Positions 25,085 to 55,925 of a DNA stretch of 64,000 nt are shown one piece after another. The stretch spans positions 124,001-188,000 of the forward strand of contig NZ_FMVM01000010.1 in the NCBI RefSeq assembly GCF_900102085.1, read 5' to 3'. Under the pieces are notes generated by a model, which had not been told where the DNA came from, searched no databases, and saw nothing but the letters and a program-made list of their open reading frames with translations. Within the stretch, counting starts at the first letter, position 1; each line of letters opens with the position of its first letter. A program made the position numbers and the translations under genes. The DNA is from Paenibacillus polysaccharolyticus (GTDB taxonomy: Bacteria; Bacillota; Bacilli; Paenibacillales; Paenibacillaceae).

Positions 25085-25382
25085 TCTGTTACATAAAAGG
25101 GTGGTCCGTTGGGGGAAGAAGTGAAGGGATGGAGTAGGGTAGATTAAAATTAGGGTAGATTAAAATGAAATAAATGAAGGAAATGAAGAAATGAAGTAAG
25201 TATGCAAACAAAGTAATTGAACTGAATGAAGAAATGAAGCGAACAAAGGAAACAAATTGAATAAAGAAAACGGAGTAAACAGCGTAAATACAGTAGGTGA
25301 ACCGAGTGAAACGGGTACAGTAAGTAACCGAATACGCGGTAAATCGGATAAGTAAATCATACAAGTAGACCAATGTGTAGTA

Positions 25383-25496
25383 GTGACTCAAACAAGTAAC
25401 CTGACGAGTAGTAGAGGGGATAAGTAACTCAAACAAATAATCCTAGGTGCAGTAGATGGATAAGTAACTCAACAAGTAACTCTAGGTGCGGTAGAG
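25383..25496. repeat. Three degenerate ~40-bp tandem repeats
   Basis: Copies begin near 25383, 25421 and 25461, each with a TAACTCAAACAAGTAA-like start and a GTGCAGTAGA-like end. The preceding 250 bases (25130-25380) are purine-rich, C-poor, and contain shorter imperfect repeats such as GGGTAGATTAAAAT twice near 25136 and 25151. No convincing gene on either strand. Confidence 0.65.
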
Positions 25497-25515
25497 TAAA
25501 AAGTGTGTTGTGATT

Positions 25516-25710
25516 CTAACGATCACAGATGAGCTTATTTGGGTGAAAAGTGGCTCTCAGGAATTCTAACGATCACCAGGAAGCTTATTTCTGCAAAAGA
25601 GGGTGTTTTAGGCCGAAAATGAGCTGACTTTTGCAAAATAGCGTGTCTGGTGATCGTTAGCCTGGTACAGCATGCAAAATGGGCCAAATAACGTCTCCTG
25701 TGATCGTTAG
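25516..25710. repeat. 195-bp dyad-symmetric element, copy A
   Basis: Four boxes: CTAACGATCACAG at 25516, CTAACGATCACCAG at 25566, then the inverted CTGGTGATCGTTAG ending 25660 and CTGTGATCGTTAG ending 25710. Forward boxes are exactly 50 bases apart, as are the reverse boxes. Each is followed inward by a CTTATTT/CTATTT-like motif. The inner pair is perfectly complementary over 14 bp and the outer over 13 bp. The same geometry recurs at 55570-55764. Confidence 0.8.
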
Positions 25711-25741
25711 AGTGTGGCGACAACAGTGGTGCAGAAGTTAG

Positions 25742-25831
25742 TGTAAATGCAGATACAGATGCAAGTGCAGGTGTAGGTGCAGATGTAGATGTAGATGTAG
25801 AGATGAAAGTGAAAGTGAAAGTGAAAGTGTA
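25742..25831. repeat. Hexanucleotide tandem arrays
   Basis: A run of GATGTA/GATGCA-type hexamers (about 25742-25802) followed by four GTGAAA/AAAGTG hexamers (about 25805-25829). Non-coding, between the dyad element and the 3' end of the dehydrogenase gene. Confidence 0.75.
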
Positions 25832-25945
25832 AGAGGTGGGGAACTGTTTAGAAAAAAGAGCTCTGCAAATCTCCGGATAAAATGCTTAAACAGTACTCTC
25901 CTCATACCTGAAAGAAAGAGATGTTTTAAGTGTGACTTAATGGGC

Positions 25946-55569: not shown

Positions 55570-55764
55570 CTAACGATCTCAGGAGACGCTATTTGGCTGT
55601 TTTTTAGCGATTTAAAATTCTAACAATCACCAGTGACCTTATTTGCTAGAAATGTGGAGCTTTTAGCCGATTTCACTGTTTTTTCTCCGAAATAACGTTT
55701 CTCCTGATCGTTAGAATTTGATCAGCCTGTTTTTTCGCCAAATAAGCTTTCTGGTGATCGTTAG
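55570..55764. repeat. 195-bp dyad-symmetric element, copy B
   Basis: CTAACGATCTCAGGAG at 55570, CTAACAATCACCAG at 55620, then inverted CTCCTGATCGTTAG ending 55714 and CTGGTGATCGTTAG ending 55764. Same 50/95/50 spacing and same total length as copy A at 25516-25710, although the sequence between boxes has diverged. A TTTTAGSCCGA-like centre is shared. Confidence 0.8.
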
Positions 55765-55794
55765 CGCATGAGCGGGGGATAAAATTAGGAAAGT

Positions 55795-55925
55795 ATGGAG
55801 TTAGGTTGTTAGGTAAGTAAGGGAGTATAGGAAGTAAGGTAGTTAGGGAAGGGAGGTAGATAAGCAGGTAATACATGTAAGGCATGTTAAGTAGGCAGGC
55901 AGATAAGTAGGTAAAGTAAGTCTGG
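55795..55925. repeat. C-poor degenerate GTAAGT/GTAGGT repeats
   Basis: Almost no C on the plus strand; many GGTAAGTAAG, GAAGTAAGG and AGTAGGCAGG variants. Similar in style to 25130-25500. No gene seen. Confidence 0.6.

Follow-up and report, generated by a model that had tools for sequence, protein, structure and literature searches.

A dispersed four-box element with helically phased spacers in Paenibacillaceae chromosomes, a candidate site for DNA wrapping

The matS sites of MatP and the ram sites of RacA are short protein-binding sequences, scattered within a single region of the chromosome, and we know of no wrapping signature associated with them. Retroviral integrases, for their part, insert on nucleosomes at one helical phase of the wrapped DNA. 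About 70 NBS in Bacillus subtilis and 24–52 SBS in Escherichia coli are reported in the sections of PMC4726725 used here, both being underrepresented near the terminus. The E. coli gyrase motif is 130 bp long with a period of 10.75 bp, is degenerate and without fixed boxes, and is read as protein-wrapped DNA in the part of PMC6379681 consulted. Among extragenic repeats, REPs are targets of the IS3-family insertion sequences IS1397 and ISKpn1 (PMC1525189, in part), and REPINs keep a hairpin in which compensatory changes are common (PMC3116915, in part).

Layout, copies and distribution of the element

The window, by which we mean the whole 64,000-nucleotide stretch of Paenibacillus polysaccharolyticus DNA analysed here, contains two copies of a 195-bp element, copy A and copy B (Table 1). 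The repeat unit is a 25-bp bipartite box, CTAACGATC-N11-TATTT, and is larger than the 9-mer core alone. Each element has two forward boxes (F1 and F2) followed by two reverse boxes (R1 and R2), with anchors 50, 94 and 50 apart. A preliminary description had reported four CTAACGATC boxes in copy A, spaced 50/95/50, and a recurrence of the layout farther along the window. All four boxes of copy A are indeed exact, the spacing is the same as our anchor distances, and copy B repeats the layout with three exact boxes and one carrying a single mismatch. The description had also staked the arrangement on other copies sharing the four-box geometry, and the further copies reported below uphold it. The intergenic DNA around both copies (window positions 25200–25500, 25740–25840 and 55790–55920) is made up, by eye, of degenerate short repeats such as GTAACTCAACAAGTAA and AGATGTAGATG.

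Table 1. Positions of the two elements and their boxes in the window
Feature	Coordinates	Strand	Basis
Copy A, whole 195-bp element	25516..25710	.	Window sequence, box positions
Copy A box F1 (25 bp)	25516..25540	+	CTAACGATC exact at 25516 (+)
Copy A box F2 (25 bp)	25566..25590	+	CTAACGATC exact at 25566 (+)
Copy A box R1 (25 bp)	25636..25660	-	CTAACGATC exact at 25652-25660 (-)
Copy A box R2 (25 bp)	25686..25710	-	CTAACGATC exact at 25702-25710 (-)
Copy B, whole 195-bp element (L019)	55570..55764	.	Window sequence, box positions
Copy B box F1	55570..55594	+	CTAACGATC exact at 55570 (+)
Copy B box F2	55620..55644	+	9-mer with single mismatch, CTAACAATC, at 55620 (+)
Copy B box R1	55690..55714	-	CTAACGATC exact at 55706-55714 (-)
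Copy B box R2	55740..55764	-	CTAACGATC exact at 55756-55764 (-)

Several patterns emerge from the wider set of copies. First, the bipartite box, with at most one mismatch allowed, has 240 matches in the P. polysaccharolyticus genome compared to two for a reversed-pattern control, and 118 of 125 distinct complete quartets from its own clade (this genome, close relatives, P. xylanexedens DE0019, P. amylolyticus 27C64 and P. barcinonensis CECT 7022) are spaced exactly 50/94/50, the other seven deviating by 1 nt at one or two spacings; the box pattern is therefore not a chance one. The P. polysaccharolyticus genome alone has 43 complete quartets, 41 of them exact, and the 195-letter pattern occurs in dozens of copies per chromosome in Paenibacillus relatives. 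A BLAST search of the same genome with copy A gave 40 distinct loci for the best 40 of 80 candidate places (L025 was dropped as the same element as L005), and 34 of the 40 form alignment A1, with L004, L008, L010, L016, L022 and L058 omitted as partial or off-spacing.

Secondly, there are two size classes. Among 158 elements in which the outer spacings were fixed at 50, the middle was left free between 70 and 120 and at most five mismatches were allowed (other copies fall outside this set), the middle spacing is 94 in 129, 84 in 26, 83 in two and 93 in one. The second class is 185 bp long, its middle being one helical turn shorter. All 111 own-clade elements in the set have a middle of 94, the first other genera read have 84 instead, and the model matches in G315, from another genus, are as long as the 195-bp class. 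A step of 10 bp in the middle is expected if the boxes must keep to one face of B-DNA.

Thirdly, the element was found only in one family. A sequence-only model (R1, built from 34 copies) matches 145 of 245 sampled Paenibacillaceae genomes, in 16 of 19 genera, the remaining approximately 100 being without a match; in a sample of the class, the 20 matching genomes of 299 are all Paenibacillaceae, 27 genomes of this family being among those listed, and none of about 272 other Bacilli matched under strict filters that distant versions may escape. Only the best ten candidates per genome in the family sample, and the best eight in the class sample, were scored, so diverged versions may be missed.

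Some loci depart from the single complete element. Two truncated elements (L247 and L248, at C15 and C17 of the own genome) comprise F1-F2 with a shortened remainder and a lone F2-R1 core. Two elements occur together in a single locus or intergenic region at L087 (6159/6442), L130 (2182/3831), L195 (1502/1889), L203 (1045/1502) and L204 (1501/2237). The L087 pair is 98% alike and its flanks resemble diverged tandem repeats, a combination suggestive of gene conversion; recent transposition in this pair was considered and dropped, as a gapped alignment suggests that the flanks are such repeats.

Helical phasing and sequence conservation

Outside the boxes the copies have diverged widely, with 37–47% identity in the spacers and middle (37% in the middle) and 28% in the flanks. 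In spite of this low identity, certain spacer columns are nearly always A or T, with either letter serving. Across the whole element, the power of the A/T columns is maximal at 10.0 bp (2.177), compared to 0.093 at 10.5 bp and 0.137 at 12 bp. Restricted to spacer columns, both classes peak at 10.1 bp (1.571 for the 195-bp class, where the null is 0.073, and 2.235 for the 185-bp class, where it is 0.095), and power at 10.75 bp is at the null level (0.054 and 0.023). Spacer-only power at 11.5–12 bp is likewise above the null (up to 1.815, at 12 bp in the 185-bp class) and is taken as side lobes of the short spacer blocks. The phasing is also seen in individual elements, exceeding at 10.1 bp the mean of the element's own spacer shuffles in 128 of 129 elements of the 195-bp class and in all 26 of the 185-bp class; mean phasing at 10.0 and 10.5 bp is 19.1 and 5.2 in the former and 19.6 and 6.8 in the latter, with shuffles giving about 6. 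Left-handed wrapping of the nucleosome type would be expected to produce a helical repeat shorter than 10.5 bp.

Many copies occupy equivalent positions in different species and have homologous flanks there. At the position of copy A, for example, an element is also present in G004, G069 and G053, and in G049 and G051 an element with diverged boxes lies between homologues of the same two genes, with cores CTAACGAAC or CTAACGAAT, one beginning CTAATG. Over 33 disjoint pairs sharing at least one homologous flank, substitutions per site are 0.040 in the F1/R2 core, 0.107 at the variable box positions, 0.127 in tract columns and 0.226 in other spacer columns; the 0.014 of the F2/R1 core is given separately, because loci L067–L139 were found by an exact F2-R1 pattern, a search that itself imposes part of the conservation in these two boxes. 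In 35 disjoint pairs at least 80% alike, the A/T class is kept in 59 of 140 changes in tract columns compared to 99 of 466 elsewhere. These comparisons of copies show purifying selection on the boxes and on the A/T tracts. Partial and IS-broken copies also occur, so single sites are dispensable.

The box cores themselves differ between lineages. CTAACGATC is present in 416 of 444 boxes of the 111 own-clade elements and in 13 of 188 boxes of the 47 elements from other loci (a set that includes some from G053, a close relative), where the leading cores are CTAACGAAC (50), CTAACGAAT (27), CTAACGGTT (19) and CTAACGCTT (17); G260 has mixed box cores. The change of cores by lineage with the geometry kept suggests that the boxes are read by a putative trans-acting protein of drifting specificity.

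The nested inverted repeats could in principle pair. The arms are complementary in 81.8% of cells, and pairing drops to 27–45% when one arm is slid by 1–3 columns (with covariation scores of 0.042–0.085), as fixed-core inverted repeats must give. Pairing arms should, however, co-vary (F1 with R2 and F2 with R1), and both the paired fraction (81.8 against 84.1) and the covariation score (0.080 against 0.107) lie below all 500 shuffles. The preliminary description had noted that box variants match outer with outer and inner with inner; this does not generalize, and over the 34 aligned copies the variable 11-mers are less similar within than between elements (0.455 and 0.521 for F1-R2, 0.529 and 0.586 for F2-R1).

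Chromosomal context and insertion sequences

Own-clade copies with both neighbours called (n = 103) lie between convergent genes in 55 cases, tandem genes in 42 and divergent genes in six, compared to 31, 90 and 44 for the 165 spaces that lack an element and measure at least 250 bp. The gene calls are custom ones; as the same place in several species is counted repeatedly, these counts are not independent. In the 185-bp class (n = 27) there are 11 convergent, 14 tandem and two divergent locations. One copy overlaps a called gene, and within convergent spaces the copies lean towards the centre (mean minor fraction 0.325, with 0.25 expected). The neighbouring genes, listed for part of the loci, are mostly ordinary, and a marker gene beside the elements was dropped from consideration for this reason. 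We note that a gene of approximately 217 codons adjoins the element at six loci in two genera (L035, L036, L038, L051, L190 and L146); one member had no Pfam match at an E value of 0.01.

In six genomes the listed elements are concentrated in the origin half of the chromosome, i.e. the part within a quarter chromosome of the origin, and share the scarcity near the terminus of nucleoid-occlusion-type sites. Among the matches listed, which are about half of all matches, those in the origin half number 29 of 32 in G052, 26 of 34 in G317 and, for three possible origin positions, 32, 28 or 26 of 37 in G053, with the origin placed by sampled GC skew; assuming the origin at coordinate 0, the numbers are 14 of 15 in G034, 26 of 27 in G002 and 11 of 12 in G035. 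Intergenic spaces of at least 250 bp are similarly frequent in the sampled parts of the origin and other halves of G053 (36 and 32, in 200 kb each) and in the two sampled halves of G052 (14 in 72 kb and 10 in 48 kb). The bias in these two genomes is therefore not accounted for by the space available. The bias is weaker in G317, where available space may contribute (nine and three spaces in 60 kb each).

Some copies in the P. polysaccharolyticus genome are interrupted by other DNA, often at contig ends. One inserted sequence, IS-A, has an OrfA fragment that matches HTH_Tnp_1 (PF01527, E = 2.8e-8), and we take it to belong to the IS3 family. A search for its ends in this genome and G069 gave 12 left and 10 right ends, the insertion events being fewer than the ends where a left and a right end stem from one insertion. 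Twenty of the 22 ends in the two genomes are inside elements: 18 were placed by strict fit (three on the nine core bases only), one lies in a copy that has lost a single base (L296), and one, at L288, is by eye in a degenerate copy; the ends at L289 and L304 are outside elements. When the 19 placed ends are folded on the dyad, assuming a 5-bp duplication and with L296 adjusted by hand, 15 fall at 4 mod 10 (14, 34, 64 and 94) and the other four deviate by one base. Most lie within boxes, where recognition of the sequence alone could account for them, and only three are in spacers, at 34, 34 and 94, in the same phase. The best explanation of this placement appears to be that IS-A uses the same helical face of the element as a landing site.

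Against this, related IS ends in G055, G068, G054, G019 and G066 adjoin, by eye, no recognisable element; in G016 one end adjoins, also by eye, a sequence like the CTAACGAAC type that is just below strict fit (38/48), and a second does not fit. IS-A is inside elements at 11 contig ends of the P. polysaccharolyticus genome (L230, L233, L238, L246, L252, L022, L251, L008, L253, L258 and L265), among 30 ends examined of a total of 68, ten of the 30 having been picked for carrying boxes, and it probably breaks the assembly at those 11. An autonomous parent element had been expected at contig ends and was rejected, the DNA there being insertion sequences inside elements. Elements are also interrupted by two further kinds of inserted DNA, at L243 (start of C19) and L010 (start of C24), by eye in the same part of a box, and one of the two kinds starts an ORF, MGEQRQRYNEEFKKQTV.

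Interpretation and comparison with known sites

We favour, with a probability of roughly 0.6, the interpretation that the element works as double-stranded DNA and is the assembly site of a putative lineage-specific protein, which wraps or sharply bends the approximately 195 bp (185 bp in the second class). The boxes would give specificity, the A/T minor grooves would face the putative protein at each turn, and the middle would have to contain a whole number of helical turns. The preliminary description had offered a protein-binding chromosome site as one option, and the rigid geometry, the helical phasing, the selection and the origin-half bias all support it. Weighing against our interpretation are the spacer-only power at 11.5–12 bp, the IS ends that mostly fall in boxes, the partial and IS-broken copies, the weaker origin bias of G317 and the approximately 100 sampled family genomes without a match. 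Less certainly, the sites would label the origin-proximal part of the chromosome or organise it, in the way that NBS, SBS, matS and ram mark chromosome regions elsewhere, and organisation of this region is the probable role. Because the distribution recalls that of the terminus-poor NBS and SBS, plausible roles, by analogy, are nucleoid occlusion, forespore capture or a mark for the origin part. We also put forward, tentatively and as the lesser possibility, a nucleosome-like system in which a sequence-specific assembly wraps 185- and 195-bp sites, dozens of them origin-proximal and few near the terminus, which together would signal an origin domain or exclusion from the terminus; the specificities of protein and sites would change in concert, and insertion sequences would read the wrapped DNA as retroviral integrases read nucleosomes.

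A selfish non-autonomous element of REPIN or MITE type, whose four boxes are bound by a transposase supplied in trans and whose phased tracts help to join the ends, would place the selection on transposition rather than on the cell, and we consider it unlikely. Copies 0.78–0.89 alike without flank homology (e.g. L006/L022, 0.872; L030/L057, 0.851; L099/L126, 0.892) fit such an element, as do the two copies within one intergenic region at L087, L130, L195, L203 and L204, the terminal inverted repeats (F1/F2 against R1/R2) typical of MITEs, and the convergent and downstream positions that REPs likewise occupy in the portion of PMC1525189 used. However, most copies differ widely and yet keep boxes and tracts, the same place is held across species with few core substitutions, and the exact tandem-pair pattern was not matched in viral contigs, nor copy A in plasmid and phage collections. 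The non-autonomous mobile element suggested in the preliminary description is a possible if unlikely reading: alike copies without flank homology exist, and no target-site duplication, dedicated enzyme or clean empty site was seen by eye or among the partial set of loci examined. Integron attC sites, considered for a CTAAC/GTTAG likeness, were dropped as the copies are scattered and fixed in length.

Less probable still is a site at which DNA gyrase or another topoisomerase would remove positive supercoils from between convergent genes, the role suggested for BIME-2. The frequent convergent location favours it, and the phased A/T composition resembles that of the E. coli gyrase motif (PMC6379681, in the part consulted), but the element is 195 or 185 bp long with a period of 10.0–10.1 bp and specific boxes that differ by lineage, instead of spanning about 130 bp with a period close to 10.75 bp and lacking fixed boxes, and gyrase is universal whereas the element is seen only in Paenibacillaceae. 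A structured RNA, attenuator or bidirectional terminator formed by the nested inverted repeats, an option of the preliminary description to which the complementary arms and the position of most copies downstream of genes would lend themselves, is very improbable and was rejected, given within-element similarity below that between elements, covariation below all shuffles, size classes one DNA turn apart, and zero Rfam matches at the gathering score in the window, with chance-level matches only at seven loci.

If the wrapped protein site is the correct interpretation, the element is a family-wide, selected component of the chromosome with rules set by the DNA helical repeat, namely base-exact spacing, two sizes that differ by precisely one turn, and phased tracts in which the individual letters are immaterial. 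Such an element would offer a route to how spore formers of the Paenibacillaceae distinguish the origin part from the remaining chromosome, and it is a natural and very specific landing site for an insertion sequence. Among the open-licence PMC papers listed for this element, none was seen to describe such a four-box, helically phased site, and a word search of PMC12306157 (RepRanger) did not find Paenibacillus mentioned; a specialist may instead class the element with dispersed extragenic repeats.

Like the matS/MatP and ram/RacA sites, the elements are dispersed and largely confined to one part of the chromosome. The phased insertions differ from those of integrases on nucleosomes in that the inserting DNA is a bacterial IS, the site is one for a putative protein, and most insertions are in boxes. 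With REP, BIME and REPIN sequences the elements share a high copy number, extragenic positions often between convergent genes, and lineage-specific sequence, and they are hit by an IS3-like IS as REPs are by IS1397 and ISKpn1 (PMC1525189, in part); unlike REPINs, they lack compensatory hairpin pairing, with covariation below chance, and have a spacing fixed over 195 bp and helically phased spacers. Like the Noc sites (NBS) and SlmA sites (SBS), they are dispersed in dozens with few near the terminus, but NBS and SBS are short palindromes with a known protein (14 bp for NBS, in the sections of PMC4726725 used here), whereas the element is a 185/195-bp four-box site with a 25-bp box consensus that is not a 14-bp palindrome. 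The gyrase motif is similar in being a long site with helix-phased A/T and G/C content (PMC6379681, in the part consulted). We regard the four-box, helically phased 185/195-bp site as new, and dispersed extragenic protein sites as a known broad kind.
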